Part shown: piece by piece, positions 6,413 through 61,880 of the stretch
Numbering within the stretch: position 1 is the first letter of the stretch
How the letters are laid out: each line of letters starts with the position of its first letter
From: Escallonia rubra
Lineage: Eukaryota; Streptophyta; Magnoliopsida; Escalloniales; Escalloniaceae
Assembly: GCA_033065855.1 (NCBI GenBank)
Contig: JAVXUO010002960.1
Location: 1-64,000 of the forward strand
Reading direction: 5' to 3'
DNA length: 64,000 nucleotides
The notes under the pieces: model-generated
What the model was told of the DNA's origin: nothing
Seen by the model: the letters and a program-made list of their open reading frames with translations, nothing else
Database searches by the model: none
Program-made: the position numbers and the translations under genes

Positions 6413-6458
6413 AGAGACTGAGTACGGAAGATAGACAGACTGCAGTACGATGCTCACC

Positions 6459-6476
6459 TCCCCAGCGGAGTCGCCA
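6459..6476 (-). other. Primer-binding site, tRNA-Arg type
   Basis: The minus strand reads TGGCGACTCCGCTGGGGA three bases after the LTR end. It is complementary to a tRNA 3' end reading TCCCCAGCGGAGTCG plus CCA, which matches plant tRNA-Arg as I remember it. Ogre elements are known to use tRNA-Arg. Confidence 0.8.
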
Positions 6477-7294: not shown

Positions 7295-7735
7295 CCCTGT
7301 GACTGTGACGATGGCTATGAGGTTGTGAGCCAATCCCGGTACGAGGGTCGAAGCCCCCTTGTGATTGAGACGGCGATGGCTATAAGGTTGTGAGCCCATC
7401 CCGGTACGAGGCCGAAGCCCTCTTGTGATTGAGACGGCGATGGCTATAAGATTGTGAGTCCATCCCGGTATGGGGGCCGAAGCCCCCTTTCTGATTGAGA
7501 CGGCGATGGCTATAAGGTTATGAGCTCATCCCGGTACGAGGCCGAAGCCCCCCTTTTGATTGAGACGGCGATGGCTATAAGGTTGTGAGCCCATCCCGGT
7601 ACGAGGCCGAAGCCCCCCTTTTGATTGAGACGGCGATGGCTATAAGGTTGTGAGCCCATCCTGGTACGAGGCCGAAGCCCCCCTTTTGATTGAGACGGCG
7701 ATGGCTATAAGGTTGTGAGCCCATCCCGGTAGCAT
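7295..7735. repeat. ~65-bp tandem array in the LTR
   Basis: The marker GAGACGGCGATGGC recurs at about 7367, 7431, 7497, 7562, 7627 and 7692, with a diverged copy near 7303, a spacing of 64-66 bp. Units share GGTTGTGAGCCCATCCCGGT and GAGGCCGAAGCCCCC. Only the last unit of the matching array is visible at 1-40. Confidence 0.9.
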
Positions 7736-7794
7736 GCAACATGATTGTGGCGCATGAGCGCGGTGCCTATAGCACGAAACAATACCTGGTGCCT

Positions 7795-8415
7795 GGGGCA
7801 CGTGTTGTGAAAGTGGTGCGGCGACGATCGTCGCGAAGCAATACTTGGTGCCGGGGCACGTATCATGAGAATGGCGCAAGGGCGCGGCGACGAACGTCGC
7901 GGAGCAATATTTGGTGCCGGGGCACGTATCATGAGAATGGCGCAAGGGCGCGGCGACGAACGTCGCGGAGACAATAACTGGTGCCGGGGGCACGTATCAT
8001 GACGATGGCGCGATGGCGCGACGACGAACGTCACAGAGCAATATTTGTTGCCGGGGGCACGTATCATGAGAATGGCGCAAGGGCGCGACGACGAACGTCG
8101 CGGAGCAATATGAAAGTGGTGCGACGACGAACGTCGCGAAGCAATACTTGGCGCCGGGGGCACGTATCATGACGATGGCGCGAGGGCGCGGCGACGAACG
8201 TCGCGGAGCTATATTTGGTGTCGGGGCACGTATCATGAGAATGGCGCGACGACGAACGTCACAGAGCAATATTTGTTGCCGGGGGCACGTATCATGAGAA
8301 TGGCGCAAGGGCGCGACGACGAACGTCGCGGAGCAATATGAAAGTGGTGCGGCGACGAACGTCGCGGAGCAATACTTGGTGCCGGGGGCACGTATCATGA
8401 CGATGGCGCTTGGGC
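7795..8415. repeat. ~67-bp tandem array, second copy
   Basis: Same units as at 105-595, with about nine copies including short hybrid units near 8100-8130 and 8240-8360. The extra units account for the length difference between the two LTRs. Confidence 0.85.
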
Positions 8416-9792
8416 GCGCATCGGGTGTCCCGAAGATGAGATGTGAGCTAAGTGTGCCTGTCATAACAAAATAATGAATGCAACATGCAGTAGTGACAAA
8501 GTTGGGGAGTGATGGTATGCGGTTGTTAACGACGGGTTTTTCGGTGGTAGCATGCGACTTTGGGTGACGGGCATCGCGAGAGCGGTGCGCGGTCACGGAC
8601 GACGGACGTCCCGAGGTTGATGCACGACGGACGTCATGAGGTTGATGCACGATGAACGTCGCGAGGTTGATGTACGAACGTCTGTGATCATAGCGGAGGT
8701 GCAAAGACTCGAGAAAACAAGTGCGCGCGGGAGGGGAGACCATTGGCCAAAATGGGGGGAAGGCCAAGGCTAATCCCTCGTGGAGGCCGAGGCCGACCCC
8801 CTAGGCATGGGGAAGGCCGAGACCGACCCCCTGGGGTTGGCCAAGGTCAAATGGCCAACTCCCATGAAGGAGCCCAAGGCCACTCCCCCCTGTTGGTAAA
8901 CTTCGGGCGCGCCGACGGTAGGTGGTTTGATGAGCAAAGACAAATCCGAAAGTTGCAATATGCAAGCGTGTCGACGTGAATCGTACCTACATGACGAACG
9001 AGCTGTCAAAGTTACGTGCAAAGCGTACGGAGTGAAAAAAGTGCGAAAAGGGGTTTGCGCAGAAGGGTGAACCACCGGGGGAAAATGGCCGAGGCCAAGC
9101 CCTCCAGGAGGCCGAGGCCGACCCCCATGGCCTGGGGAAGGCCGAGGCCGACCCCCTGGGGTTGGCCAAGGTCATTTGGCCATCTTCCATTTTTCGGAGC
9201 CCGAGGCCACTTCTCATTTTGCGAACTTCGGGTGCGCCGTTGGTAGGTGTTTTGATAAGCAATGACGAATCCAGAAGTTGTGTTACGACGAGCACGTTGC
9301 CAAGAATCATACCCACATAGCGATCAAGGTGTCAAGGTTACGTACAAAGCGTACGAGGGGAAAGAAGTACGAAAAAGGGGTATGCGGGAAAGGGGTGAAC
9401 CACCGGGGGAAAGTGGCCAAGGCCAAGCCCCCCAGGAGGCCGAGGCCGACCCCTATGGCCTGGGGAAGGCCGAGGCCGACCCCCTGTGGTTGGCCAATGC
9501 CATTTTCCCCCTTGACCCCGTTTCTCCAAATGCGCCGTCGGCCGATATTTTTGATGAAAAGGTGTTCGGATGGTCTCGGTGTGACGATCGCGCTAGCGTT
9601 AGTGACGTCGACGCGAAATAAAATGACTAAGTCACGCACGAAGCGCGCGGAACGAGAAAAACACGTGTCTTGGGCACGAGGGCGCTGACAGATTTGATGC
9701 GTTGGAAAATTGACCGTTGACAATGTCGACGTGTTCGCGTGAAATAGGACTCCTATTGGGCCTTTGGGTATGGCCAAAATAGGTTGGGAACA

Positions 9793-10254: not shown

Positions 10255-12867
10255 CTATCTTGGACCTGATATCTGCTGAGATGAGATATACGAAAAATAA
10301 GTATTTGAGCCACTCTTCGTGTTCGTGCGAGATGCATTTGCTTGTGGGTACAACATAACATCATTTTGCGCACTGGCATCCTCTATCATGGAAGCCTCAG
10401 CAAACCGCCGACCATAAAAGCGCAAAAAGTTCAAAGATTCCACTCGGGGCCGAGACAAAGGGATCTCACCTTCCAACATGCCAACAACACTAACCATATT
10501 CGGCCTCAGTGAGGGCTCCTCGTGAACACAGCACAAAGCTACGCGCACCAACTTCTCCACCTCTTCACTAGACACCCGCCCCTCTAGCCTCAGGTCAGCA
10601 AGGTCCAAGTAATTTCCTCTCTCATGCATCTCCAATGCAAATAGTGGAAAATAGACAAGTCCCTGTCTTGATGAAGATGACGAGTGGCCACCGCCACTAT
10701 TATCATCGCTGGTGCTACGGCTCTGTGTTCGTATAGAGCAGTTTTTCCTTCCACTGACAAGTTCAAGTAACACCATTCCGAAACTATAAACATCAGTTTT
10801 ATTAGAAATCGCAGAGCTAGTAAGCCATTCCGGAGCAAGATAGCCCCGAGTGCCTCTCATTGTTGTGAATAGACTGGACTGCTCAGGGCTTAGAAGCTTT
10901 GAGAGTCCAAAATCTGAGATCTTTGCCGGGGAATTAGCGTGCAGGAGAATGTTCTCCGGCTTGACATCACAATGGATAATTTTTTGCTCACAGCCAGTGT
11001 GCAAGTATGCAAGGCCACGTGCTGTTCCAAGAGCTATCTCGACCCTTTCTTGCCATTCCAAGACTGGTCCACCACCAAAGAGAGTGCAGTCCAATGAGCC
11101 CCGATTCATGTACTCGTAAACCAACAGCCATTGTCTCCCTTGGGCACAAAACCCTTTCAGCTTGACCAGATTCACATGGTGAACATTTCCTATGATTGCT
11201 ATTTCATTGCAAAAATCCCTCTTCCCCTGAACACCCAAGTTAGTAATCCTTTTAACTGCCACGAGAGTTTCATCAGGAAGTCTACCCTTGTACACCGTAC
11301 CAAACCCACCCGACCCAATCTTAGTCTGGAAATTGTCAGTAGCTGCCTCGAGCTCTTCAAACTCAAATCTTTTAGGTAAGCCTGGGATGGAAAAGGCATC
11401 CAGCTCTCCAGAAGAAGGGCAGGTTAAGGACCCCAGCTTTATCATTAGTGTCTTGGAGACTCTAGACCTCCTCCACAAGAGGAATCCCAATGCGAGTAAC
11501 AGGAACAACCCAGTGCATGGTAAGAGCACTAACGCAATTAGAGGAAATTGTACTGTTGGCCCGCCAATATCATCGTCGTTGTCAAAGCTTCTTGTTGCAG
11601 CTCCGACTAGAGTTTTAACAAATCCCAACCAATCATTATCACTCGTGGTTCGTGAAATAATTGATCCAAATTCATATCCTACCACATAACAAGACCCAGA
11701 TGAGTTCCCATAGAAAATTCCTAAGCAAGAGCAATCCTCTGAGCAGAGATCTTGACATGCTGACAAATCAACACCATACTTGACAGGCGAGGTGAAATAA
11801 TTGGCAAAGTAGTCGATACCATAGTTAAGCCGTAAATATGACACTGGTGAAGAAGAATTAATCTGACTGCTACTGTGAGTAGTATTACAAGAGACTGGCA
11901 AAGAATACGAAGCATCAGCTGGCACGCAATCACCGGTGTTTTGTGAAGCAAGACGGAAGTTAGATGGGCACGAGCATACAGGACTCCCTGATGAGGCATC
12001 ATCCCTACACAACCCAATTTTTCTGCAGATAAATGGAATTCGGCATTCATCTGCTGGCCCCCCAAATTCCCGCGTCTGTGCACCACCTCTGACGATGAAC
12101 TGTCCAGAGACATCCAATGTGGCAATTCTGAAATCAGATTGAGGCAAGTTCATCTTAATAATAACTACAGATCCGTTGCGCCCAAACAAAAACAGACCTG
12201 TTTGATTAATCGCCATATATTCAACTGCATGATTTGAGTTCGTGTAAGCCTTGGTATCCATAGACAATTTCCAATATGTCAAACCCCGCCACTGCAAGAT
12301 AGCGTCAGAGGCAGTAATAGCAAGCTTGTAGTCACCGGTTGACAAGTCATAATCAGATACAGCGCTGAACAGTGCTGTCTCGACAGGCAAGTACTGTCCA
12401 ATCACGATTGTATCGGTCGGATATTGGAAACTCTCCCAAAGGGTCCCGTTAAATTGATCAAGCAAGACAAGGTTTCCCATCTCAGTAAGCCTTAGAGCCG
12501 TTGCTGGCGACCGTAACTGTGGAGTTGACCATCTGAAACTACCATCTTCATCAGTTATATAAATTCCACGGAAAGTAAGATTCATCTGTCCAGAACTCGA
12601 TATAGGCGCATCACGATTGGCAGACCAGACGATGGTATTTGATGCTACATGGATAACGCATAAGTAAAATTTCGTTTGTTGGCCCCTGGGATTGAACAGA
12701 GCAGCTTTGAATGTTCCGTTACTAGAAAATAAGAAACTGCCAGAGCCATCAATGAAACGGAAATGTGAGGCAGAGTAGTTTGGATATATAAACTCTGATG
12801 AAGAAAGACAGTAGACAAATGCGCAAGATAAGGAAATAGAGAGGAAGAAGAATAACAGTGAGCCCAT
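10255..12867 (-). CDS. G-type lectin S-receptor-like serine/threonine-protein kinase
   Basis: A single-exon gene of 870 aa for a plasma-membrane receptor-like kinase. It resembles Arabidopsis At5g35370 (about 872 aa) in length and domain order, from memory. Signal peptide 1-24; B-lectin about 35-150 (VWSANRDAPIS, LWESFQYPTDT); S-locus-like part to 270; EGF-like cysteines about 274-314; PAN/apple cysteines about 327-410; membrane span 441-464 followed by WRRSR; kinase about 515-800 with GSGGFG (518-523), Lys539 in VAVKR, HCDVKPEN (632-639), DFG (652-654) and APEW (688-691). HCD instead of HRD marks a non-RD kinase, a class often linked to immune signalling. An in-frame ATG 31 codons upstream (12960) exists, but the inner ATG sits directly before the signal peptide and gives the family length. 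All catalytic residues are present, so it looks functional. Ligand unknown. Confidence 0.92.
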   Translation of the reverse strand: MGSLLFFFLSISLSCAFVYCLSSSEFIYPNYSASHFRFIDGSGSFLFSSNGTFKAALFNPRGQQTKFYLCVIHVASNTIVWSANRDAPISSSGQMNLTFRGIYITDEDGSFRWSTPQLRSPATALRLTEMGNLVLLDQFNGTLWESFQYPTDTIVIGQYLPVETALFSAVSDYDLSTGDYKLAITASDAILQWRGLTYWKLSMDTKAYTNSNHAVEYMAINQTGLFLFGRNGSVVIIKMNLPQSDFRIATLDVSGQFIVRGGAQTREFGGPADECRIPFICRKIGLCRDDASSGSPVCSCPSNFRLASQNTGDCVPADASYSLPVSCNTTHSSSQINSSSPVSYLRLNYGIDYFANYFTSPVKYGVDLSACQDLCSEDCSCLGIFYGNSSGSCYVVGYEFGSIISRTTSDNDWLGFVKTLVGAATRSFDNDDDIGGPTVQFPLIALVLLPCTGLFLLLALGFLLWRRSRVSKTLMIKLGSLTCPSSGELDAFSIPGLPKRFEFEELEAATDNFQTKIGSGGFGTVYKGRLPDETLVAVKRITNLGVQGKRDFCNEIAIIGNVHHVNLVKLKGFCAQGRQWLLVYEYMNRGSLDCTLFGGGPVLEWQERVEIALGTARGLAYLHTGCEQKIIHCDVKPENILLHANSPAKISDFGLSKLLSPEQSSLFTTMRGTRGYLAPEWLTSSAISNKTDVYSFGMVLLELVSGRKNCSIRTQSRSTSDDNSGGGHSSSSSRQGLVYFPLFALEMHERGNYLDLADLRLEGRVSSEEVEKLVRVALCCVHEEPSLRPNMVSVVGMLEGEIPLSRPRVESLNFLRFYGRRFAEASMIEDASAQNDVMLYPQANASRTNTKSGSNTYFSYISSQQISGPR

Positions 12868-13641
12868 GTTAGAGTAGAGAAGAAGGGAGGAGCAGAAATG
12901 GGTTGGATGGATGGGAATGGTATTGGCGAGATGGAATTGGTCTGCTCTAGCTACCCTCATTTCTTTTCTGCATTATGGGTTTTCAGTTGACTTGTGAAAC
13001 TCTCCTTCTCTCTCTACGCCAACTTTGACAATATTGGTGGCCCAAGTATAACATCAGCTGGGGATGCAAATGTTTGAATTCCAGTACACGTCTCTGACCT
13101 TAGAAACTAGTTATTTAACCCAAAACATTCAAGCATGATGCACTACCACATTATTCAAATGCAGTATTCCCTTCTGACAACTTGTTTGCCTTCACTTGCA
13201 TATTCACACTGTCAACATTACAGTGGGAGCTTATCCATGGTCAACCACAATCACTTAGCCAAAAAGTTCGATTCATTTCTAGCCGTCCACCTCAGCACCG
13301 TGATGAATGATCCAGATGCGGAGGCTTTAGAGCGGCGGTCGAAATGACCAATTTTTGCAAGCCTCCGTGAATAGCGACAACTTCTGTAGTTTCACCCACG
13401 AGCAAAGAAAAAAGGAATACGTTCGGCCGACCCATTCATTAGCGAAAGCGAATGGGTGGGCCCAGGTTGGAGCATGCTAAAACCTGAAATGGGGTCGGCC
13501 TGAATTTATCTTCTTTCTTTTTCCCAATAATATTATGTTAACGCTAAGAGTGATGCTTTTAAAGGATTTAGTGACGGCAATGTGTAGCCTGGAAGAAAAC
13601 CAGCCATCAGATCAGAGTGAAGAAGAACAACTTGAGTGGCA
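12868..13641. other. Upstream region of the kinase gene
   Basis: Non-coding. On the minus strand a GA-rich stretch (about 13000-13018) lies 130-150 bases before the start codon and could be leader or promoter. No clear TATA box is visible. A short inverted repeat, ACCCATTC / GAATGGGT, lies near 13430-13460. The 70-codon plus-strand frame at 13135-13347 has no recognisable content. Confidence 0.4.
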
Positions 13642-20876: not shown

Positions 20877-21298
20877 TGATATGGCTAAATATATCCACCC
20901 AACCGACTAATGACACGTGGAATGTTTGACTCTGAGTGGACTAACGAACCTGTATCAGGATAGAACCTAAGAGAGGTGATAGAAGCCGTTAAGGACTCAA
21001 GTGCTAAAAGAAGAGTCCTAACATGGCTCTTCTACAAGAAGAACAGTCAGAAGAGAGTTCTAAAGAAGAGAGGAGTCTAGAAATGACCTATATATTGGGC
21101 AGATCCTCAGGTACACGGACAAGTTCACACACAAGCACTCAGTGCATTTTTAGCTATTCAGAATCCTACCCTAGTAGCGTCGTTCTGACTTTAGCATCGG
21201 AGCCGCCTCCACCGGAACATCCCCTGTGGTCACTCTGTGTTTCTATTTTGCAGGCTCATTTCCTAGCTGTGGTCCCGATCAAGATTTAAGTAGTAACA
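20877..21298 (+). repeat. 5' LTR of the Tat element (422 bp)
   Basis: Starts TGATATGGC and ends TAGTAACA. A TATA-like box CCTATATATTGG lies near 21088-21097 and recurs in the 3' LTR near 31051. Confidence 0.9.
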
Positions 21299-21549: not shown

Positions 21550-22850
21550 GCCATCGCCTGACCAAAAAGCTGTTTGACACTCCGAATGCGGATCTGACCA
21601 GAGAAGTCCACGAACTTAAGGGTGTGGTAACCACCTTACAGAAAAAGCTTGAAGAGGTGGCCCCGATGATTTCTACTAACCAGACACGCCTTAATCCCAG
21701 CGACCTTCGTCTTAGACTGACCTCAAGGTCCAGCTATGGTCGAAAGTATAAATCAGAGACTGATCCCAGCTATCAGCCAGAACAAGAAACCGAAAAACAT
21801 GTCACCAGAAGTGGATCATGTTTTCAGCACGGGATGTCAGTAGAGAACAGCAAGAATTCGCCTCCTGTTGTAGGCGGCGAAATTTGAGGTCAACGCTGCG
21901 CGAACCAAATGCATTGTCCCCAAGGATGAATTCATGGCTCCATACGAAAAGCGCGTCCCCAAGGGCGAACTTCTCGCAAAACTATCTCTGGGCCTTGCCC
22001 GGAGGCATTCACTCCCCCAAAGGAGGTCTCAGGATACCCTATGTCCAAAACAATTGAGAAGGCGAAACTTCCTCCAAATTTTCGGATGCCGCAGTGCGAT
22101 TTATATGATGGGAGCGGAGACCCTGGAGAGCACGTCTACCAGTTTCAGATGCCGTCATGTGCCGGGCATTCCCAACCACTTTGAGGAAGGCGGCGCATGC
22201 GTGGTTTAAGTCTCTACAACCCAGGACCATCCATTCTTTCGCCCAGCTGTCTGACTTGTTTCAGAAACATTTTGTGAGCAGCCGAACTCGGAGGAAGAAT
22301 TTAGCAAGTCTTCTTAACGTGGTCCAGGAAAGGAACGAATCCTTGTCGCGGTATTTGGGACGCTTCAATGCGGCGACATTAGAAATAGATAACCTTGATG
22401 AGTTGGTAAAGTACACAGCTTTTATGCGCGGGCTTCGTCTTACAACCAAATTTGCATTTGCGGTAAATAAGAGCCCCCCCGGAAGCATGAGCACTTTGTT
22501 GGATAAAGCCAACAAGTACATCCAGGCCGAAGAGTATTTAGAAACCCACAAAGGACACAGAGGAGACAATGGGCAAGAGCAAGAAAAGAAAGCTCGAGAA
22601 AATAGTCCAAGAGGTGGACAGGGTTCTAAGCGTTCAAGAAGGGACGAAAGGCGCCCCAAAGAGATGTTCGACATGAAGAATCTGACGCCATTGACTGCTA
22701 GACCATCGCAGATTCTTCATGAGATAAAGGATAAAGAGATACTGGAAAGACCAGACATGATGAGATCGGCGCCCAGTCAGAGAGATAGAAATTTGTGGTG
22801 CCGTTAACACAACGACCATGGCCATACTACCGACAAGTGTGAATCGCTCA
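21550..22850 (+). pseudogene. gag region of the Tat element
   Basis: The clearest part is at about 22160-22560, where the capsid-family pattern is plain: AWFKSLQPRTIHSFAQLSDL, FQKHFV, NESLSRYLGRFNAATLEI, YTAFMRGL. A basic stretch and a Cys/His zinc-knuckle-like motif follow near 22800-22850. Upstream the region is more diverged. Interrupted, so not a working gag. Confidence 0.8.
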
Positions 22851-23056
22851 AGCGTGCAATAGAGGCTCTTATCAAACGCGGACACTTGCGAGGGTATGTC
22901 AATCGAAGAAATAAAAAGAGGGAAGCCACTCCTTCAGCAGGAAGAGAAGAGGCGCAAGAAAATGCGGGTGTCATCCATACTATCTCGGGAGGAATCGCCT
23001 CAGGAGGTTCTTCCGGACATGGATGAAAAGCTTACGCAAGAGAAGTCATCACAACT

Positions 23057-26000
23057 ATGGGGCCGTCGATTAAGAAGCATAAGATAAAACCGGCCCCAAC
23101 AATATCCTTCTCTGATGACGATGTGGGAGACACGAGAACACCTCATGACGACCCCTTAGTTGTTACACTCCGGGTAGGGAACTTCGATATGAAGAGAATC
23201 CTCGTAGACAATGGGAGCTCGGCGGAAGTACTTTTTTATGAAGCATTTTAAAAAATGAACATCCCGTCGGACCGCTTACGGAAGATAGATACGCCCCTAT
23301 ATGGTTTTTCTAATCATCCTGCTACTTGCGAGGGAATTATTACATTACCCGTGACCGTGGGTGCCCCTTCGACCCAAGCTAAGCTAATGTTAGACTTCGT
23401 GGTGGTACGCGTTCCTTCGGCCTATAATGCAATTTTGGGGCGAACATCGTTAAACCAATTAAAGGCGGTGGTATCAACATACCACATGAAAATGAAATTC
23501 CCCACGGAGAATGGAGTTGGGGAAGTAAATGGAGACCAGGTGGTAGCTCGACAGTGCTACATGGCATCATGCCGAAACAAAGCCAAAGAAACCCTCATGA
23601 TAGAGGATTTGAGGGATGAGACCAAAGTCGAGAGAGGCAAGCCCGCTGAAGACCTCATTCATATCGAATTATATCCAGGAAATCAAGAGAAGACAGTAAG
23701 GGTGGGAACCGGTCTGTCAGACGACCTCAAGCTCAAGCTTGTGGATTTATTAAGAGGCTACTCAGATATCTTCGCCTGGACGGCATCCGATATGCCTGGG
23801 ATTGATCCGGAAGTGATCACCCATAAATTGAATGTTGACCCGCTCAAGAAGTCGGTTAAGCAAAAGAAGAGGACATTCGCTCCTGAAAGACAAGTGAAAA
23901 TCGAAGAAGAAGTTGACAAGTTATTGACAGCAGGATTCATTGAGGAGATATCGTATCCTGATTGGGTCTCCAATGTCGTGATGGTACCCAAGTCGAGCGA
24001 CCGTTGGCGGATATGCATCGACTTCACTGACCTCAACAAGGCTTGCCCAAAAGACAGCTACCCGCTACCGCGAATTGACATTTTGATTGATGCAACTTCG
24101 GGTCATGAGCTGTTAAGTTTCATGGATGCGTATTCTGGGTACAACCAGGTAAAGATGTGCGTAGATGATATCCCCAAGACCTCCTTTATTACAGAACGGG
24201 AATTATATTGTTATAAAGTCATGCCCTTCGGACTCAAGAATGCGGGGGCAACTTATCAGCGCCTCGTTAACATGATCTTCCATGACTCAATTGGGAGAAA
24301 CATGGAGGTATACGTGGATGACATGCTGGTCAAGAGTGTGGAAGCCGAGGCTCATGTGAAAGACCTCAAGGAAACCTTCGACATCCTGAGAGCTTATAAC
24401 ATGAAACTAAATCCGCTCAAGTGTGCGTTTGGTGTAGCATCAGGGAAGTTCTTAGGATTCGTGGTATCTCAACGAGGTATCGAAGCAAACCAGAAAAGAT
24501 AGGCGCTATTCATGCCATGAAGTCGCCTAAGACAATCAAGCAGGTTCAGGAGCTTACAGGAAGAGTGGCGGCTTTGGGAAGGTTCATGTCCAAGTCAGCC
24601 AAAAAATGCCTCCCCTTTTTTAAGGCTATCAGGAAGGCGAAAGATTTCGAGTGGACCGAAGAATGCCAGAGGTCGTTCGAAGAATTGAAGCAATACTTGT
24701 CGTCCCCGCCGCTCCTTACAAAACCGGTTACTGGTGAAGACTTGTTCTTGTACCTATCGGTTAGTGAAGTAGCGGTAAGCACGGTTTTAATCCGAGAGGA
24801 AGAAGGCAAGCAAAGACTTGTTTATTACATGAGCAAGGTCTTATAGGACGTGGAAACGAGGTACCCTCGAATAGACAAGGTGGCCCTTGCCCTTGTCACA
24901 TCGGCGAGGAAATTGAGACCATATTTCCAGTCGCACACCATCGTTGTGTTGACTGATCAACCATTGGGTAAAGTTCTCCAAAATCCTGATGCGTCGGGGA
25001 GATTGGTAAACTGGTCGGTGGAACTGGGCAAGTTTGATATTAGATATCAACTCCGTACAACAATTAAGGCTCAAGACTTATCAGATTTTGTTGTTGAATG
25101 CACAATACCGGAGAACCCCCTGCAGTTAATTCTTTCAGAAGTTTCGGATCCTTGGCTCCTTTATGTTGACGGCTCTTCCAAGGTAGGAAGTAGTGGAGCC
25201 GGGCTTATACTTATCAGCCCTGAAAAGTTTGTGATTGAGTACGCCCTCCGCTTCAATTTCCAGGCATCAAACAATGAAGCTGAGTACGAAGCGCTCCTAG
25301 CAGGAGTAAAGTTGGCACACTCTCTCAAAGTTGACTCTCTTTCCGTCCATAGCGATTCTCAATTAGTTGTGAATTATAACTTGGGAGAATATGGAATGAA
25401 AGATGGTAGAATGGCCCAGTATCTCCAAGCCGTGAAAACGGAAGTTGCTAAGTTCAAAATTTTCGCCATCCGCCACATATCGCGAGACCAAAATGCCCAA
25501 GCAGACTCACTGTCAAGACTGACTTCCGAGGACATTTTGGCGTTAAACCGGGCAGTATACATTGAGTTCCTCCAAGAAAGAAGTATCCAGCTCTCAAAGG
25601 AGGTGGATGTAGTATAACATGACCCTTGCTAGATGGACCCAATTATTCAGTACGTCGTCTCGGGAGTGTTACCGTTAGAGAAAAGCGAAGTGCGCAATTT
25701 ACGTGCTAAAGCTGCTCGGTTTGCCCTTGTAGATGGGATGCTATATAAGAAGTCTTTTAGCCTGCCATACCTAAAGTGCCTGAGCCCTAGAGAGGCAGAC
25801 TATGCGTTACAGGAGGTCCATGAAGGGATTTGCGGACAACACTTGGGTGGAAGAAACCTGGCGCACAAAATCTTGCGGCAAGGTTATTATTGGCCAGGGA
25901 TGCAGAGAGATGCGATCAAGTTCACAAAAAGATGTGACCGCTGTCAAAAATTTGCCCCGCTCACGCACACGCCGGCGGCACCCCTTAGTATCTTGACTTC

Positions 26001-26832
26001 CCCAATTCCGTTTGCAATGTGGGGAATGGATATTTTGGGCCCATTTCCGATGGCTACCGGGCAAAGACGTTTTGTGATAGTCGCCATCGACTACTTCACA
26101 AAATGGACTGAGGCCGAGTCGTTGGCCACCATAACGGCATCGAAATGCGAAGAGTTCTTCTGGAAGAACGTTGTCTGCCGCTTTGGGGTTCCAAAGGTCC
26201 TGATCACTGATAATGGGAAGCAATTCGACAATTCAAACTTTCGAAGCTTTTGTGAAGGTCTCTCTATTGATCTCCGTTTTACGTCGGTCGCTCATCCCCA
26301 ATCCAATGGACAGACAGAGAACATGAATCGCTCAATCCTTCAAGGGTTGAAAAGAAAGCTGGATGATGCGAAGGGGGCATGGGTTGATGAGCTTCCTAAG
26401 GTACTTTGGGCATACCGCACAACACCCCATTCTGTGACAGGCGAGACACCATTTCTCCTGTGTTTCGGGACAGAGGCGCTGCTACCCGTAGAAGTGGGCC
26501 TCCCCACGGTTCGAGTGTTGCAATTTTCGGAGGCAGAAAACAAAGAGAATCTCAGAGGGAATATGGATCTATTAGATGATGTGCGAGCCCAAGCCTTAGA
26601 TCGGATGATTTCAACAAAACAACGAGTTGCAAGATTCTATAATCGAAAGGTCCGAATGAGGATATTTAGAGTCGGCGATCTAGTCCTCAGAAAATTGGAA
26701 GTTTCAAACCCTAAGGCAGCTGTGGGGAAGTTGTCGCCAAACTGGGAAGGACCTTACAAGATATCGAAGGTGCTTAGACCAGGCGCTTATTCACTGGAAA
26801 CACTTTCAGGAGAAGCGATCCCGCGAACATGA
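23057..26832 (+). pseudogene. pol region of the Tat element (PR-RT-RNH-aRNH-IN)
   Basis: Protease: ILVDNGSSAEVLFYEAF near 23200. Reverse transcriptase: RICIDFTDLNKACPKDSYPL, FMDAYSGYNQ, MPFGLKNAGATYQRLVN and YVDDMLVKS near 24000-24340. First RNase H up to about 25060. Second, archaeal-type RNase H: LYVDGSSKVGSSGAGLIL and FQASNNEAEYEALLAG near 25160-25300. Integrase: zinc-binding His/Cys near 25850-25960, then core Asp in WGMDILGPFP, Asp in LITDNGKQFD and Glu in SNGQTENMNRS, and an AYRTTPHSVTGETPF segment. The motifs are well kept but the region is broken in several places. Confidence 0.9.
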
Positions 26833-30952: not shown

Positions 30953-31265
30953 TGATATGGCTAAATATATCCACCCAACCGACTAATGACACGTGGCATG
31001 TTTGACTCTGAGTGGACTAACGAACCTGTATCGGGATAGAACCTAAGAAATGACCTATATATTGGGCAGATCCTCAGGTACACGGACAAGTTCACACACA
31101 AGCACTCAGTGCATTTTCAGCTATTCAGAATCCTACCCTAGTAGCGTCGTTCTGACTTTAGCATCGGAGCCGCCTCCACCGGAACATCCCCGGTGGTCAC
31201 TCTGTGTTTCTATTTTGCAGGCTCATTTCCTAGCTGTGGTCCCGATCAAGATTTAAGTAGTAACA
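30953..31265 (+). repeat. 3' LTR of the Tat element (313 bp)
   Basis: Same ends as the 5' LTR, shorter overall, 4 substitutions in the shared part. Followed by GGAAC. Confidence 0.9.
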
Positions 31266-33766: not shown

Positions 33767-33874
33767 TGTCACGCCCCCAAACCGGGTGGCCGCGACAACA
33801 AAGCAAACCTCAAGATATACGATTACCCTTTTAATGATAACGGTATAAACAGAGCAACTAAAAACCTCCAAAAT

Positions 33875-33877
<3 letters not shown>

Positions 33878-33905
<28 letters not shown>
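33878..33905. repeat. TA microsatellite, left of element A
   Basis: 28 bases of alternating A and T ending directly at the GGGAGCTGATCC terminus of element A. Confidence 0.9.
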
Positions 33906-35648
33906 GGGAGCTGATCCATTGACAGCGCTGGCAAATGGAGTTAAGTTGCCAACGCGATCTGGCCGTCCATCCTGAAAGATGGACCGCCCAGATCGCGCCT
34001 TTTTCGAATACTGTCAGTCGTCCGCGACACTATATCGCGGACGGACTTTTTTACCTTTTTGCCCCTCCGCCCCGTCCGCTAAACTGTGTCGCGGACGGAC
34101 TTTTTTTTAGTTTTTTTTAAGCCCGTCCGCTACATAATGTAGCGGACAAATTTTTTGACAAAAATGACAGTCTGTTACGTCCGCTACATTATGTAGCGGA
34201 CGAGTAGACAGAGACTACTTTTTCTTTCTCTTTTTCGGTCCTTTCTCTCACTGCTCACGCATCAGTACCATCTTCCTGGTTGACAGAATCGCAAAATCTC
34301 CATGCCAGTTTAACTGCAAGACTCCAGAAGAGGACAAGGGCAATATAAGTTTTGGTAACAACCCTAACTGAATGGTGAACAGCAAGTAGGTTGCTTGGAT
34401 ACCCTTTTTTCGAGTTGAACCGTTACTGTTTTCTTCAAGACTTGGAACCACTTCCGTTGCCTACTTCTGCCAGCCATGCCCCATTTTCCATTTTGATCAA
34501 CGAAGGCGAAAACCCACTCTTTCACCTCACAACTTGCCTATGCTAAACTAGCAAGTCACCGCCACTGACTTGCCTTTGCTTACCTTTCCAGTTCTTGCCA
34601 TTTTCTGGGGAAAAAAAGAACTCGTCTTGTCCGGCCGGATTCTTCAGTCCACCATGTAACCTCCCAAAAATCCCTTCTGGGTTTATGTTCACAAGAAAAC
34701 CCAAGTTGCCCACTTGCCCCTCTGGTCAACTCGCTCCCAGACTCATTTATTGAGCTCCGGCGACACGGAAAGCGACTCAGTGTGTTGCACTGTCGTGACG
34801 TGTCCTCCAGCAAGGCGCCGGCGCCGCGCATAAGTCAGGCACCCACCACCGTGGGCCTTCAACAGTCGCGGCCGCATATCTTCCTCCACCATCGGCAATG
34901 GGTAACGACGACGAGTAGGTGATGCTTAAGCGCCGCCCAAACACCGTCCAGCTCCCGATCTATGCCACCGCGATCTGGAGCTTGGATGGTTGGCGCAGAT
35001 CGGCACGGAGCTCCTCGCAACGATGATGCTAGTGGTCACAACCTCCAGATATGCGGCGCCGTCGTCTCACGTCGTACCGTCGCGCAGACTCCATCAACCG
35101 CCGGCCACCGGCGCTCCAGATCTACTCCAGATCTGCCCCACCGTGATTGGCCGCAGCGCCATGGCCACCATCGCCGATGTCGCATCGCCATCTCTTTAGG
35201 CCGTGCTGTTCCTGTCAAGAAATTGGGTTTTTTTTTCTAAAGAGAGAAAATGAGAATGGATGTGGGGGTTGGCTTTCTCTTTTCTGAAATATCGTCCGCT
35301 ACATAATGTAGCGGACAATATTTTAGAAAATATAATTTTTTTAAACCCATCCGCTACATAATGTAGCGGATGAGAGAAAGGACAGACCAAAAAGTCAGAG
35401 CATTAATGAGAGAAAGGGAAGAGAGAGAAAAAAAATGTCAGAAAACTATCCGCTACATAATGTAGCGGATGGGCTGTTTTTAAGTTTGAGGGTATTTTTG
35501 TCAAAAAAATCGTCCGCTACATTATGTAGCGGACGAACTTAAAAAAAGTGCAAAAAAAAGATCTGGACCGTCCATAGATCGCGCGTGGACGGCCAGATCG
35601 TGTTGGCAACTTAACTCCATTTGCCAGCGCTATCAACGGATCAACTCC
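33906..35648. mobile_element. Palindrome-rich TIR element A, bounded by TA repeats
   Basis: The ends are inverted: GGGAGCTGATCC at the left and its complement-like GGATCAACTCC at the right, continuing with about 90% identity for roughly 60-75 bp (GCGCTGGCAAATGGAGTTAA). Both ends abut TA microsatellites. Six copies of a 23-bp palindrome (arm GTCCGCTACAT, one A or T, complementary arm) lie at 34125, 34179, 35294, 35349, 35448 and 35512, with two variants at 34020 and 34074. No transposase is seen. The middle (about 34210-35280) is GC-rich, gene-like and non-repetitive. A non-autonomous element of a class I do not recognise; microsatellite-linked Micron elements of rice are the nearest idea. Confidence 0.7.
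34230..35230. other. Interior of element A: possible captured genic DNA
   Basis: Not palindromic and higher in GC than the ends. Frames of 60-92 codons on both strands overlap (for example 34580-34831 minus, 34962-35240 plus), but none shows a domain I can name. The mix of UTR-like and exon-like composition suggests fragments of host genes. That is inference. Confidence 0.35.
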
Positions 35649-35676
35649 ATATATATATATATATATATATATATAT
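35649..35676. repeat. TA microsatellite between elements A and B
   Basis: 28 alternating bases, the same length as the tract left of A. It directly joins the right end of A to the left end of B. Confidence 0.9.
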
Positions 35677-37603
35677 GGGAGCTGATCCGTTGAGAGCGTG
35701 GGCAAAATGAGAGATCTTACAAACGCGATCTGGGCGTCCACGCGCGATCTGTGGACGGCCCAGATCTTTTTTTTTTGCGTTTTTTAAGTACGTCCGCTAC
35801 ATAATGTAGCGGACAATTTTTTTGACGAATATACCCTCCAACTTTGTCCGCTACATTATGTAGCGGACAGAGGCCCCATACTTTTTTCTGACTTTTTCTC
35901 TCTCCTTCTCTGACCACTTTTTCTGACTCTTTCTCTCTCTCTAAAATATCGTCCGCTACATAGTGTAACGGACCATATTTCAGAAAAAACAGAGTCTGCC
36001 AACCCCACATCAATTCTCACACTCTCTCTCTTTCTCTCTCTCTCTCTTTTTCTGACTCTTTCTCTCTCTCTTGCTGGGAGATCGTCATATGGGGCTTCAC
36101 TAGTCTCTTCCTGGCCAACTGCTCTCTTCCTGGCCGAGCCCTCCTCAGAATCAGAAGCCTTCTTCAATGGGGCTTCACTTGGTTGTGCGCTTGTTTTACT
36201 ATTCCGATTCACGGATTTTCTTTCTTCCCTCCTACCATGTGACTTCTTGATCTGTTCAGGCACATAAACTTGTTTCTGAAACTTCATTCTTTGAAGCCCC
36301 GAATCTTCCACCTTGACCAAAGAACCGTCGGGTTGCCCCACAGATAAACACAACTCTTTCCTCCCAACTGCCTCTACGTCTCACGAGGTCTTCAACCTGG
36401 CCTAAGAAGCCAACAAATCAGCCTCAGCTCCTTTAATCTGTGCAACAAAGGCTTCCCGAATTTTTGAACCCGAGCCACCTTCCAATTGCCCAGAGCCCAC
36501 TGTCGCCCTCAGAAGAGCCAAGCGCGGAATCGACTGGCTTCTTGATCCGACATCTTCCCCTGTCTCCAAAGATTCACCCCGTGAAAGAGCAATCTGCGTC
36601 TCCGAAGCTATTTTGTGGATCCCTATAGGCTCGATGCTTTGATCAGTAGAGCCACCTGGTTCTGCTCTACCTCCTAACGAAAAGCTGAATTGGGCTTAAG
36701 AGATTGGTTGATCTTTCGAAGCGTTATCCTCAGCTTTGCTTAAGTACGGCCTTGACTCGGTCTTACTAGAAGCCGGCCTATTAGACTCCAAAGCCTCTTC
36801 TGGCCTACCAGAAAAACCCGTCAACTGTTCTGTCCTATGTGGGTTTTTTTTTCTGGCGGTGGTGCGAACAGCACAGGCAAATTCGCGGCGACGGTGCGGA
36901 CGTGTCGGGATGGCTGTGTCTATGTGTCATGTGTGGATGGGTGTGTGCGGTGGTCGACAGTGCTTTTTCTTCAACGACGGCGGTTGTTGATCTCGTCGGC
37001 GGAGGGTGGTGATCGGCGTGGTTACGGTCCTAGTGGTCATTGGGGGTTGGGGAGGGCCGGAGGGGGGAGGGGGGAGGTACGTGCTGGGTGGTGGTGGTTG
37101 GGTTGCAGTACTGTTGTGGTCGTGGGTTGATGATTAGAAATGTCTGGAATTTTACCAATTTATCCATGAGAGATGAAAAAAGAAGAAGAACATGTAGTTC
37201 AGAGAGGGGAGAGAGAGAGAGATGAACAAGAGATGGGTTTTTTTTTCCTCTAAAGAGATAGAGAGAGTGAGAATTGATGTGGGGTTGGCACTCTGTTTTT
37301 TCTGAAATATGGTCCGCTACATAATGTAGCGGACGATATTTTAGAGAGAGAAAAAGTCAGAAAAAGCGGTCAGAGAAGGAAAGAGAAAAAGTCAGAAAAA
37401 AGTATGGGGCCTCTGTCCGCTACATAATGCAGCGGACGAAGTTGGAGGGTATATTCGCCAAAAAAATTGTCCGCTACATTATGTAGCGGATGTACTTAAA
37501 AAAAACGCAAAAAAAAGATCTGGGCCGTCCACAGATCGCGCGTGGACGGCCAGATCGCGTTTGCAAGATCTCCCATTTTGCCCACGCTCTCAACGGATCA
37601 GCT

Positions 37604-37606
<3 letters not shown>
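35677..37606. mobile_element. Palindrome-rich TIR element B, bounded by TA repeats
   Basis: Inverted terminal repeats of about 345 bp (35677-36030 and 37255-37606), about 94% identical by eye, start GGGAGCTGATCCGTTGAGAG. Six 23-bp palindromes or close variants at 35792, 35846, 35951, 37312, 37415 and 37469 are placed symmetrically in the two arms. Each end also has an inner hairpin, GATCTGGGCGTCCAC against GTGGACGGCCCAGATC. It shares end sequence and palindromes with element A. The middle (36040-37250) differs from A. No transposase found. Confidence 0.75.
36090..37140. other. Interior of element B: possible captured coding fragment
   Basis: The minus strand from about 36353 to 36090 reads a Lys/Arg/Ser-rich segment of normal complexity (SVGQPDGSLVKVEDSGLQRM, VYVPEQIKKSHGRREERKS). 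Related sequence continues to about 36800 with interruptions. 36840-37130 is G-rich. I do not recognise the source gene. A fragment picked up by the element is the simplest reading. Confidence 0.35.

Positions 37607-37639
<33 letters not shown>
37607..37639. repeat. TA microsatellite, right of element B
   Basis: 33 alternating bases starting directly after the GCTCCC end of B. Confidence 0.9.
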
Positions 37640-37641
<2 letters not shown>

Positions 37642-37908
37642 AACAAAAGCTATCCATTCACAAGTATTTCTTCCACTAAGTATTCTATTACAAAACAACT
37701 TCTAATCGCAGCGGACAAACGGTTATACAAAACAATTCTATCAAATTACCCCAACCGAGTAAAGTTCCCAAAAGAATATAACTACAAACTTTATCAAACC
37801 AAAAGCAAAATCTCATAGTTCCCAAAGCTGCCATAAGAATCAAGAGTCACTTCCTTCACCTGTGACAAAGGCAAGGTAAGAAGACAAAGGGGTGAGCTCA
37901 AATAGCCC

Positions 37909-39948
37909 TGTCACGCCCCGAAAACGAGAGGCCGCGACTAACATCAAACTCCATTATATACCATTACAGTTCTATAGATAACGGTATAGACAGAGCAACT
38001 AAATCCTCTAAGATAAAATATCTCCACAAACAAAAGTCTAAGACAATCCGTTCACCAAAATAATTCCACTGAGTATTCCTTTACAAAATAATTACCAAAC
38101 GTAGCGGTGAAGTAATTTACACAATAATTAATTCTATCAAATCACCCATATCAGGGTAAAGGTCTCCAAAAAGAATTTCACTATCCAAATTTTCTCATAA
38201 GATCAATACTCTAACTTCAGGGTCCATACACGTCTTTAAACCAAGACCCAAACACATCAATGACATAACCATTATAAAGATATAGCAGATGCCACAAACA
38301 CCATTATCTAAATCTCAATCTTACTTATCTCAAAAGATCCAAGAGTTTAAATACAATCCTTTAAAAAAAAACTTTAACTAATAATCTTCCTCATCAAAAT
38401 CCACTAAAACCAACTAATATGACCAAAGCTCTACTATTCAATACAAATTCCAAGTCTCAAAACCAAATTACTCACTTTCGGGTAGAGTTCTCAAATGATT
38501 TACATGCTCAATTATACTAACAAAAACTAAATGCTCTAATTTTTCCCAAACATGACACGCCCAAAATCACGTTCGATACCTGTGGTAAGGGACAAAACAA
38601 ACGAGTAGGGGGTGAGCTTGAATAGCCCAGTAAGTGGAAAACAAATGGGAAGCAAATACGATGGTTTGTAGTCCAAAATAAAACCAAATCTTTGACGAAC
38701 ATGATATAGCAATTGACTACAATGCAAATAAGGCGAATCAAATGCACGAAATGTTCATAAGGTGGTCCAAAGAACCCAAATCAAATACAAGCCCGAAGGT
38801 ACGAAAGTGAGCAATCATATCTTACTGTCAAATACCAAAGCAAACGTCATTAAGCGTTTAACCAAAAACACATATCAATTATAGGTCGGGTACGCTACAA
38901 ACATACGATGACTATGGTGGTCATAAGACCCAAATATTGTCGAACCAAACATCAAATATCAAACGTGTGCTCCAGAGCATACTAGGAGGCTTTGGCTTTC
39001 TAGTATAACAAACATGTGTCCATAGGACCCTCTCTATTTTGAGAGTTGTTCAACATAGTCAGTGTCAATCTTAAATTGACGGTCACAAATGTATAGATTC
39101 AAAGATGTGCATCATCAGGGCACAAATGAAAAAGGGTAAACAATATTATAGACGAAAGGGTACAAGTGCGACAAATCAAGTGCAAACAAATATAGATGAA
39201 CCAAAATTGACGAAGCATAAACCTTCAGATTCCGACGGATATCTTTCCCACAACAAAAATGACGATAAAATCCCTTTCACAACAAGCTTGATCAAAATCC
39301 AATAATTTTCCAGATTTAAAGAAGGAAACCCAAGCCAAAATCAAAAGGTAGAATCCCTTACAAAACAAGATTAATCAACTCCAACAACTCTTTTTCAGAT
39401 TTAAAGAAGCAACCCATACCATAACAAAAACGTTACAAACCCTTACCACAGGAAGAACGTTCAAATCCTTACCTCAAACAAGCTTTCGAACAAAAGAAAA
39501 CCTCAAAGCACCACTCTAGCGCCAAAAGAGCTTTTCAAGCCTTCCATTGTCTCTATCTCCTCCGCAAAGGAACAAGGAACCAAGAACAAAAGGGCTAAAA
39601 TAAAACAAAGAGGCTATTTATATGAAGGTAAACAAATTACACTATTCATTCAAAGCAATACAAGTTTAAGTCGACTCAAACCTTCAGCCGTTTCTTCTCT
39701 TGATTTAAAACACTTTTAAGTCGACCGAAAACACTTTTAATGAAAATACTTTTAATTCTACCGAAAACAACTTTAAGTCGATCGAAAATAGTTTTAAGTC
39801 GACCGAAAACACTTTTTAGTCGACTGAAAGTACTATTCATTCGACTAAAAGTTACTGTTCATCAGCTAAAAGTAGTAGTTCACCAACTAAAAACTTCAGA
39901 AACTTTTTTCTTTTTTTTACACAAGAAAGAAGATTTTGGGGTATTACA
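37909..39948 (-). mobile_element. Solo LTR (inner), 2,040 bp
   Basis: TGTCACGCCCC to GGGTATTACA, inserted into a relative of the same family. The outer LTR is interrupted after AATAGCCC and resumes with AGTAGGGTAAACAAATGG at 39954, just as the inner copy reads across that point (38620-38650). Flanks AGCCC (37904-37908) and AGCAC (39949-39953) differ at one base. A TATA-like TATTTATAT near 39615 fits minus orientation. Confidence 0.85.
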
Positions 39949-41589: not shown

Positions 41590-44191
41590 AGGTGTTACAT
41601 ATTTCATGTACCAAAGGCCCTAAAAATATAGGTGGCAAAATATTATCAAGTAGGGTCTTTTTCCATTGTGACTTGTCAAGTCCAGGAATAATCACATGTT
41701 TGTAAGACCTGATGTATGCATCCCTATGATAACACTTGTCCACATAATTAACAAGGTCCAAATTTTCATATACCAAACTTGCAGCAGCATGAACACAAGG
41801 TATCCATGTGAGCTCCTATAGCCTACAAGTGCAGGTTCAAGCCTCCAAGTCGAAAATGCATGTATTAACAACTGAGTAAGTTCAAAGATGTAGTTCCCAA
41901 GGACTACCACCTCAAAAGTCCTAGCCTCATCCATGATTAACTCTACTTTTCCTTGATCCTTGGACAAAGCACTTAATTCCACTTTTTCATATAATTCCTC
42001 TTCTCTTGATATCTATTCATTAACTGCCTTCTAATCGTCTCTAACATTGTTAGCATTGGTTTATCCCTAATTTCCTCAGTATATTAGTTAAAAGACTCAT
42101 AAATGTTGTTAGATAGGATGTGACACTTAGCCTTACCACTAAAAAATGCCCTACACTATGTTGCAGGTGACTCTCTCATTAAGTACTTATTTTCGCCTGC
42201 TTTCTATCCCTTAAGCTTGTGCATGTAATGGACAAAACCAGATTCTGTGGAAGTAGATGTAGCTGCCCACATCAAGTCGTTAAGCTCCTTGTCATTGTGT
42301 CCTGCACTCTTGAAATTGGCATGCATATGCCTCGCACAAAACCTATGATCAACATGTGGCAATTGTAGTTTAAAATCTTCAACTGAACCCTTTTTAAGAG
42401 GAGGACAACAAAAAACATAGAATTGTTAAGTGTTCAATCAATAAAAGTAAACCCTTATAACAAATAAAAAATAATACTGAAACTAAAGCTATGTTTTTTG
42501 TATTAGATATGAAAGTACATTTCCCCATTTCAGATACTCCAAGGCAGTCAATCAATGTCTCTAAAAACCAACCCCTACTGTCTTTTGTTTCTTGCTCGAT
42601 AACAGCATTTTCTAGGGGTACATCTTGTCAATTTAATCTCTCCCCATAGCATGCATCAACTGACCACAATATGCTCCCTTCAAATGACAAGCATCCAATC
42701 CAATGAATGGCACACTACCACCAAGGAACCTTATACTCTGTGCTTCAAACAACATGAACATTCTCTGAAATACTGGCATCCCATCACTGACCAATGTCCT
42801 TTCTACCTTAAGTGATGTAGTGCTCCCTAGATTTTGCTTCCTTGCACAGTAGCCCCAAAGCCTTTTGTACCAATCTTTGTTGCTGCCATGCATCATTTCC
42901 ATGGCCTTTCTCAATTTCATTTTCATCACCTTCATTATCAACTAGTTCATCAATACCTACATCAATTCTCCCTCACCCATACCTGCATGGTCAACATACA
43001 CCATCACTACATCACTCACACCCCTAAAAAGACTGAATATTGTTAACATATCCACATCACTCACAAACTTCCTAAGCTCCAAACTAATTGGAGATTTGTA
43101 ATAAAAGTTGCCAGGTTTAGTATTCTCAACCCCAAACACATTGATGTCATCTTTAAGTCAAGCATAGAATATGAATGCTCATCTGCATCTCTACCATAAT
43201 CTAATGAGCCCATTATAAGTGCAATGTGCAAAATCAATCTTACCACCATGCTAGACTCATATGTCAGACAAACTGCTACTGGGAGCCCTGATCCTGTTGG
43301 TAAAGGAAAAAAAAGACATTTAAAAACACAAAAAGTACCCAAACCGACAGATTTTCTGGAGAGAGGTCACAAAAAAATTGGCACCTTACAGATATAATCA
43401 ACATTATTTATTGAATGATTTAACATAAATAGTCAGAGGGACCACAAACCTCTCGATAAATGCATAAATACAAAAAGGTACCCAACTCGATTGTTCTTCA
43501 TGCATGAAGATAAAGGCAAACCCCTAACTTATCTGAATCAAAGAAAATGTTTCTCAATCAGAGGGACCACAAACCTCTCGATAAATGCATAAATACAAAA
43601 AGGTACCCAACTCGAATTGTTCTTCATGCATGAAGATAAAGGCAAACCCCTAACTTATCTGAATCAAAGAAAATGTTTCTCAATCAAACTAAACAAAACC
43701 CAAAATCTAGAAGTCTATGAATTTAGTGTTACAATATATGGTAGTGAAATTGATTACAGTTAAAAAGACATAATTTAAATAGAAATATCGGTCGTCCCTG
43801 GTTTGCACCGCCATTGTCTACCTTTTTCGGTCATTTTCTTCCTCCTCCTTTGAGTCCTGATACGCCTAGGGTTTTGGCTGAGAGGAAGAGTGGCCGTGAT
43901 TTGGGGGAATTTAGGGGTCGCGATTTGAGAAAAATTGGGGACCATGAAAGAAGAAGATGTGGTCGAAACTGCCCCACAATACACATTTTAGTGGTAATTT
44001 GGGAATATAGCATTTTAATGCCCTAGGAAAAATAGTTGTTGACTTGTAAGGCTACAACAGTTTTTTTACAAGCTCAAGTAGTTGGGTGTAATTATTGATA
44101 GTTAAAAGGGTTTCAACTGTAAAAATTAATACCTGAAGGGGTTGACCCGCAAGCACGAAATGCTTTAAAGGGGGCCATTTGTCATTTCCCC
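41590..44191 (-). pseudogene. Mutator-like transposase gene (mudrA-type), decayed
   Basis: Minus strand, 5' to 3': a terminal sequence GGGGAAATGACAAATGGCCC near 44191; a short leader and start region (MTEKGRQWRCKPGTTDISI) near 43780-43850; a MuDR N-terminal-like part near 42960-43300 (YGRDADEHSYSMLDLK); the transposase core near 42640-42940 (VFQRMFMLFEA, PFIGLDACHLKGAYCGQL, with the first catalytic Asp); then near 42000-42340 FCARHMHANFKSAGHNDKEL and RDKPMLTMLETIRRQLMNR; a SWIM-like zinc site near 41800-41850; and the tail YHRDAYIRSYKHVIIPGLDK near 41700. Stops and frame changes break the core into pieces of at most 102 codons. The C-terminal end is cut by the LTR at 41589, and the second TIR was not found. 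Confidence 0.8.
43433..43683. repeat. Two tandem copies of a 125-bp unit
   Basis: TCAGAGGGACCACAAACC starts at 43433 and 43558, and the following bases are almost identical. It lies in the 5' part of the MULE gene, probably an intron or leader. Confidence 0.9.

Positions 44192-50493: not shown

Positions 50494-50565
<72 letters not shown>
50494..50565. repeat. TA microsatellite (about 36 repeats)
   Basis: Uninterrupted alternating TA. Unlike those at 33878-37639, no GGGAGCTGATCC element end adjoins it. Confidence 0.95.
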
Positions 50566-60232: not shown

Positions 60233-61880
60233 TGTGTAACACCCCGATACTTTTAAGGATCTAATTAGAAATTTTAGCAGCGAATATATTTTTAGCGACA
60301 AAGATTTTGTTAGCACCGATATTTTTAAGTAGCGACCATTAGCATCAATAAATTTTTTCTTTAGTAACAGTGTACTTAATAGCGACGTTTTGACAAACAA
60401 GATAGCGTAATAACCCGTTGATAATTTTCTTAACACATAAATTATCATAAAGATTTATTGTTGGACCATTTTCAAGTTAATAATTTCAGTTAAGAAGTTT
60501 TAGCGACAAAAGGGTGAGAAGGTTTTCTTGTCTTTGTCCAATTAGGGTTTTGGGTTATATATAAGCATGATATTCTCTGGCAGCCGACCCTAAAATTTCC
60601 CATACCTCCTGTAAACGGCTGAGAGAGGAAGAGAGATACCGAGGGAGGAAAAAGGGAAGGAGATGTGTCGAAGTCTGGCGAAGAGTCTAGATTTCGGTAA
60701 GACTTCTACCTTCATTTGTCCTAAATTAGTCTATATATATATATATATATATACATAACGGCTGATAGAGGAAGAGAGATACCGAGGGAGGAGAAAGGGA
60801 AGGAGTTGTGTCGAAGTCCGGCGAAGAGTCTAGATTTCGGTAAGATTTCTACCTTCCTTTGTCCTAAATTAGTCATGCGTGGGTGAGAGAAGTTTGCTGG
60901 GTTGCCGTGGTGGTTTCGTGGGTAAGCAGCCATGGCTGCCTCAAAAGCTGTGAGTAGAGAGAGAGAGAGACATGCTGTGTGGGTGTAGAGTGTGTATATT
61001 ATTTGTATGAGGGTTGTAGGTGATCGGTGTGTGTGCATGCTGTGTATTTTGGATTTGTGAGTGTGAGTTGTGTGCTTGTGTGTGTGTGTGCCGTGAAGGA
61101 GGAAGGGGGGTTGCCCCTAGGATCAACATTGATTTTTTATTTTCTCTGTTATGTATATTGCCGTGACTGCTACGGAAATGATTAGAAAGTATTCTCTGAA
61201 ATAATTTGTGCTCGTGTTGAAATCTTTTTGAGAATTCTTCAATGCATTCTGGAAAGAACTGTCTCAGATGATCTGTGTACGTTTTGAAATTCTTTGGAAA
61301 ACCATCATCGTATTTTGGAATGATGGCTTTGAAGATGATCTTTTATTAATCGTTCTGGAACCCATCCTAAGTATTAATGTTTATTTTGGTATTTGATCCT
61401 TTTGAAAATTATTGAGTTTTTGACCGTTTGAAGTATTCTGAAAATTTTCGTCGGTTGGATTCTTTGGAATCGTTTTGTGATTCTTTTGTTAGTCTTTGTA
61501 TGACCTTACTGAGCTCTCAAAAGCTCACCCTTTGTTTGATTCCCTTCTGCAGGTAATGATCAGTTGTAGCATGTTCGGGGTTGGGATAAAGTCTGTGTGA
61601 GATTCCGGTGAGCCCACCACTACTGTGTAGTGAGACCCCTGCGTGGGTCAGTATTGTCAACTCGTTCTATAAGGACTCGAGTTGTAAAGAACCTAGGTCT
61701 TAATAGTTCAAGTCTAATCAGTTTTGTAATATTGTATGTGAAGAATTGGAGTTGATATCAGATTAAATGTTTTGAAGTATGTGTTAGTGAACAAGATCTG
61801 ATAGGTTTGATGTGATCCGGTAGGTTAACGACCCGAGAGTTCGGGGCGACGGAGCTCCGGATTTCCGGGGGTGTTACACA
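60233..61880 (+). mobile_element. LTR, 1,648 bp, plus orientation
   Basis: Ends TGTGTAACACCCCG and GGGGTGTTACACA are near-perfect inverted matches. A TATA-like TATATATAAG lies near 60556, about 320 bases in. The leader carries a duplicated block. The flanks (CTAGT and GACCC) do not match, so this is not a simple solo insertion. The right end lies inside a hAT gene, the left end against another element's leader. Confidence 0.7.
60615..60873. repeat. Tandem duplication in the LTR leader
   Basis: A block from ACGGCTGAGAGAGGAAGAGA to CCTAAATTAGTC occurs twice (about 60612-60731 and 60757-60873), separated by a short TA run. Each copy holds a donor-like TTCGGTAAGA. Confidence 0.85.

Follow-up and report, generated by a model that had tools for sequence, protein, structure and literature searches.

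Two adjoining elements with ordered subterminal palindromes in a TA tract of Escallonia rubra, probably non-autonomous Mutator-like elements

The locus and its surroundings

The analysed stretch of 64,000 nucleotides from Escallonia rubra, here called the window, is plant-like by its ORFs. An uninterrupted ORF of 905 amino acids (10255–12972) codes for a B-lectin and a protein kinase domain, as in S-domain-type receptor kinases. Two direct repeats of 220 bp (21079–21298 and 31046–31265, 99.1% identical) surround ORFs for gag, reverse transcriptase, RNase H and integrase (22109–26832), an order which we take to be Gypsy-type. They probably belong to the LTRs of a Gypsy-type element that inserted recently. 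A pair of direct repeats of about 2 kb (1–1970 and 7691–9792) is located around a gag ORF (4673–6505), with identities of 98.5% over 525–1970/8346–9792 and 97.6% over 1–420/7691–8110. Its appearance is that of a young LTR retrotransposon whose LTRs are filled with tandem repeats. A recent tandem duplication at 43433–43686 comprises two copies of a 126-bp unit that are 99% alike.

Two elements, A and B, lie between three TA runs (Table 1). The original prediction had placed both elements and had given the runs as 28, 28 and 33 bases long. Coordinates and lengths proved exact, and Tandem Repeats Finder reported all three runs as 100% perfect. All four element ends abut a perfect TA run. The layout is A-(AT)14-B without nesting, and each element has its own two ends.

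TA runs of at least 22 bases occur five times in the window, three times at this locus. The termini of A and B were not found beside the other two (50495–50565 and 60732–60753), and the window contains no further copies besides A and B. The run at 50495–50565 is perfect and, at 71 bases, exceeds the boundary runs of A and B in length. The run at 60732–60753 is located near the unit boundary of a tandem repeat (60614–60874, about 1.8 copies of a 143-bp unit, 94%). The window has no Rfam match at gathering score and no tRNA, and a structured-RNA or tRNA origin of the elements was rejected.

Table 1. Coordinates of the two elements, their parts, the boundary runs and the host repeat in the window.
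Feature	Position	Strand	Description
Left half of interrupted host repeat	33767–33877	+	matches 37909–38003; joined-flank alignment
(AT)14 run, left outer boundary of A	33878–33905	.	28 bases
Element A, non-autonomous TIR element	33906–35648	.	1743 bp
A left terminal region	33906–34202	.	outer inverted repeat, GATCTGG..CCAGATC hairpin, palindrome units at 34019, 34073, 34124, 34178
A interior	34256–35215	.	unrelated to B interior, G+C 54%
A right terminal region	35293–35648	.	palindrome units at 35293, 35348, 35447, 35511; end is AACTCC
(AT)14 run between A and B	35649–35676	.	28 bases
Element B, non-autonomous TIR element	35677–37606	.	1930 bp
B left terminal inverted repeat	35677–36031	.	93.5% identity with its right counterpart; palindrome units at 35791, 35845, 35950
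B interior	36072–37226	.	unrelated to A interior, G+C 51%
B right terminal inverted repeat	37256–37606	.	palindrome units at 37311, 37414, 37468
TA run, right outer boundary of B	37607–37639	.	33 bases
Right half of interrupted host repeat	37640–37800	+	gapped alignment to paralog
Diverged host-site paralog without elements and without TA run	37909–38210	+	AATATC at about the matching place

Terminal regions, interiors and coding capacity

Each end has the same order of parts from the tip inward: an outer inverted repeat, an imperfect hairpin (GATCTGG..CGTCCA / TGGACGG..CCAGATC) and the palindromes. Common termini had been predicted for A and B. This was exact at three ends, where the terminal 12-mer GGGAGCTGATCC is found at A left, at B left and, reversed, at B right. 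The fourth, A right, reads GGAGTTGATCC and is one base shorter; its two mismatches to the 12-mer come from one absent terminal G and one changed base. At up to three mismatches the 12-mer occurs 39 times in the window, with 39.08 expected. Since this is the chance level, the weight of evidence lies in the long ends. In the outer 64 bp or so, 59 of 64 columns are identical between A left and A right and 61 of 64 between B left and B right (92–95% within elements); the ends of A are 77–83% identical to those of B. The terminal inverted repeat of B comprises 355 columns with 93.5% identity. In A, the outer 63 nt are 94% identical and the repeat extends to about 146 nt at 77%. Long terminal inverted repeats, a trait of Mutator-like elements (MULEs), are thus present in both.

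Likeness between A and B extends further on one side. Positions 35216–35648 of A and 37227–37605 of B share 71% identity over 441 columns, which exceeds the common part named in the original prediction. Over the outer 205 bp, A right is 79% identical to A left, 85.6% to B left and 88.1% to B right. A right is nearer to the ends of B than to A left, and recombination or rearrangement may accordingly have shaped A. Between the facing ends, A right and B left, the likeness is no greater than between A right and B right, which do not face each other, and a sequence conversion between neighbouring ends is therefore not indicated.

These ends also bear on the number of elements. MULEs with additional tandem TIRs exist (PMC3310237), and A-TA-B might be a single composite MULE with multiple TIRs that moves as a unit. 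This is extremely unlikely: A and B each possess an end pair, a perfect TA run separates them, and over the outer 64 bp the two ends of each element resemble one another more than they resemble those of its neighbour. Identical clusters were not found in a pineapple study (PMC8449440). The argument from likeness within elements fits less well over 205 bp, because A right is nearer to the ends of B there.

The interiors, delimited here as 960 bp in A and 1155 bp in B, had been described as different. The comparison bore this out, with no match between them better than E 1.6. Their G+C content of 54% and 51% is higher than that of the adjacent host DNA, 38% and 36%. Neither element encodes a recognisable transposase: all 40 stop-to-stop ORFs of at least 50 amino acids inside A and B were compared with Pfam, and none had a transposase or MULE domain. 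The matches up to E 0.1 were a fibrillin EGF domain (0.0031) and a CycT2-like domain (0.09). A scan of seven ORFs up to E 1 gave weaker matches, to Presenilin, CDC45 and DUF1088. All of these were dismissed as signs of gene capture, since chance can produce such matches. A PDB search with three interior pieces returned nothing up to E 1. The interiors may contain captured fragments of host genes, a trait of Pack-MULEs.

Palindromes in a common register

The palindrome layout is the least ordinary feature of the locus. A 23-bp palindrome family common to A and B had been predicted from the sequence and was confirmed: the two elements contain 14 units at up to four mismatches to a 21-base core, and the rest of the window contains none at this threshold. 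The scan covered up to seven mismatches on the + strand; the core is identical to its reverse complement. It yielded one extra place outside the elements, at 42147 with six mismatches.

The units are located at set distances from the tips: 113, 167, 218 and 272 bp in A left; 113, 177, 276 and 331 bp in A right; 114, 168 and 273 bp in B left; and 114, 168 and 271 bp in B right. The first unit is placed at 113–114 bp in all four ends, a unit at 167–168 bp is found in three of the four, and one at 271–276 bp again in all four. Common descent of the ends could alone explain this fixed register. The two most deviant palindromes, at 34019 and 34073, both belong to A left.

The outer 300 bases of the four ends, folded as single-stranded DNA, gave z values of −11.57, −8.31, −8.20 and −10.43, and for each end none of 200 shuffles folded as low. 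The evidence for compensatory change within the palindromes is weak. Paired cells made up 93.4%, and changes on both sides occurred in 3 of 11 pairs; depending on the measure, these values were reached by 11 to 46 of 500 shuffles, and the 14 units provide 11 distinct rows, which are related.

The exact 21-base core was absent from a public collection of genome contigs. In a public collection of viral contigs it occurred once, between two ORFs of a 5.5 kb contig (L001:1530–1550). TA runs of at least six units are missing from this contig and, the palindrome aside, no part of it resembles A or B at an E value below 0.38. It was rejected as a relative of the elements and regarded as a chance hairpin match, by judgement and without a control. 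The string GTCCGCTACAT led to one paper in the literature, an unrelated mouse study. Literature searches for palindromes in a fixed register found no match. None of the terms "palindrome", "foldback", "subterminal" and "hairpin" appears in the main texts of the guayule (PMC5907723) and pineapple (PMC8449440) studies. Foldback-type repeats in MULE ends are already known from MuTAnT, FARE1 and Muta1; palindromes in fixed register did not turn up in the passages of the related literature.

A function of the palindromes can be sketched. Placed at set distances from the ends, they might bind the transposase or an accessory protein, or extrude hairpins, and help in the choice of TA tracts, which are prone to unwinding. 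This proposal is doubtful. If true, it would connect the structure of the ends with microsatellite targeting, which was left open by the authors of the SaTar study. How elements find microsatellites is described as an open question for guayule and carrot (PMC5907723, PMC8227079).

Host site, class and known systems

Both outer flanks align, with gaps, in one piece with the nearby paralog, which contains neither element. Identity is 80% for the left and 72% for the right flank, the paralog being diverged by roughly a quarter. The local score of the right flank with the paralog was 120, and the best of 500 single-base shuffles reached 52. The continuity of the flanks in this empty copy supports an insertion into a continuous host repeat. 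It indicates that the outer flanks were once continuous. On one point the original prediction was supported: A and B are separate, non-autonomous TIR elements that belong to a single family and lie next to each other in one TA tract. Given its divergence and a mere AATATC at the site, the paralog does not establish a long TA run before insertion. For maize, empty sites are reported to be short TA tracts, with expansion following insertion (as cited in PMC5907723), and empty sites in Medicago have nine TA repeats on average according to PMC4486113.

The preferred reading, to which we assign a probability of about 0.8, is that A and B are two non-autonomous MULEs of one family, each of which inserted by cut and paste into a TA tract. 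By the descriptions of published families, they probably form a new family of a known kind, the microsatellite-targeted MULEs. Of the three features listed for the microsatellite-array kind, two are found at the locus: a microsatellite on both sides and a linkage without nesting. The third is a preference of many copies for microsatellites across the genome; the window has these two copies. Within flanks of TA runs, a target duplication of 8–11 bp is unrecognisable, and a duplication of the TA dinucleotide likewise. With the duplication hidden, the putative Mutator membership rests on resemblance. Neither a transposase nor a sequence match to any named MULE family was obtained.

For these putative MULEs, the transposase would come from a partner at another site of the plant genome and recognise the ends common to A and B. 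Recognition would probably include the subterminal regions with their palindromes. The first element would have entered an AT/TA tract within the host repeat by cut and paste. The second would have entered the TA run beside the first, which would yield an A-TA-B array without nesting. The TA runs may have grown later through slippage or repair synthesis.

The original prediction had assigned the family to a class outside the usual TIR families and had pointed to TA as the target of Tc1/mariner. The first claim was not supported: in the literature, such an arrangement is described as the way in which Mutator-like elements choose their targets, and rice Micron, on which the prediction had drawn, was reassigned to non-autonomous Mutator-like elements of the SaTar kind (PMC5907723). 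The link to Tc1/mariner adds nothing at this locus. A class other than Mutator that targets TA, such as a Tc1/mariner-type element with TA duplication, would also leave TA at every boundary. It is very unlikely here, as a dinucleotide target leaves the long perfect runs at every boundary unexplained. The 355-column TIR of B is also atypical of Stowaway-type elements. The microsatellite-targeting families compared here were assigned to Mutator by their authors (PMC4486113, PMC5907723, PMC8449440).

The manner of placement is a separate matter. The same MULEs could have been placed by homologous recombination between circular intermediates with TA filler and a genomic TA tract; a duplication made by transposase is not expected in that case. 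The authors of the SaTar study proposed this model because many SaTar flanks misfit a 10-bp duplication, and they called it speculative (PMC5907723). TA sequence at all three boundaries of A and B is in line with it. The local empty copy, itself diverged, offers just AATATC and thus little homology. Placement by recombination is unlikely, and insertion by cut and paste is preferred.

The closest known systems are microsatellite-targeted elements of plants, with which A and B were compared by description. SaTar are non-autonomous MULEs in microsatellites, often (TA)n, that form arrays without interrupting each other. The guayule study catalogued more than 300 clusters and mentions SaTar also in rice, sorghum and citrus. 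SaTar are about 380–1900 bp in size, and their microsatellite-linked arrays are described as never nested. They share with A and B the similar size of non-autonomous TIR elements, the mainly (TA)n flanks and the end-to-end links by microsatellites without nesting; the largest listed rice family has 1900 bp, whereas B has 1930 bp (all PMC5907723). Micron of rice and TAFT of maize are likened to A and B, again by description, through their insertion in (TA)n (as cited in PMC5907723). In carrot, more than 2000 microsatellite-targeted elements (MiMs) are reported in TA stretches (PMC8227079).

MuTAnT of Medicago truncatula resembles A and B in its insertion into TA microsatellites, its modular foldback TIRs and its non-autonomous copies. 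Its variable number of terminal Gs is comparable to the absent G of A. Fourteen of 218 copies were located outside perfect (TA)n and indicated 9-nt duplications, and a putative autonomous mudrA-like partner, AutoMuTAnT, is described. Unlike A and B, 90% of MuTAnT are 200–300 bp long, and the search mask for the TIR start is GGGGTTTGCTAGAACA rather than the 12-mer of A and B (all PMC4486113). This mask is the sole published end that was compared; by eye, its agreement with the ends of A and B was limited to the leading Gs. The passages in PMC9168764, PMC9569675 and PMC13359780 cite MuTAnT and contain nothing further on TA targeting. The pineapple families Ac-mMITE and mt-MITE have similar TIRs, TA flanks and an adjacent clustering without nesting (46.1% of full-length copies), as have A and B, but are MITEs of 210–570 bp in contrast to 1.7–1.9 kb (PMC8449440).

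Foldback-type elements share the repeated ends. Muta1, a MULE of Aedes aegypti and type 2 Foldback element with 8–9 bp duplications, has a long TIR with repeated subterminal units, and its derivatives keep the ends with mixed interiors. Its units are 12-bp tandem repeats and not 23-bp palindromes, and TA targeting is not mentioned in the passages on Muta1 (PMC5225508). FARE1, an Arabidopsis Foldback element now classed as a MULE, has long palindromic repeats at both ends like A and B; TA targeting is not stated in the citing passage (PMC4486113). Tm1 is described as a Mutator/Foldback family of root-knot nematodes. By itself, the locus changes no general view. Next to these systems it offers well-ordered subterminal palindromes and a local copy of the empty site, and it is a probable addition to the plant elements that land in TA microsatellites and pile up without breaking each other.
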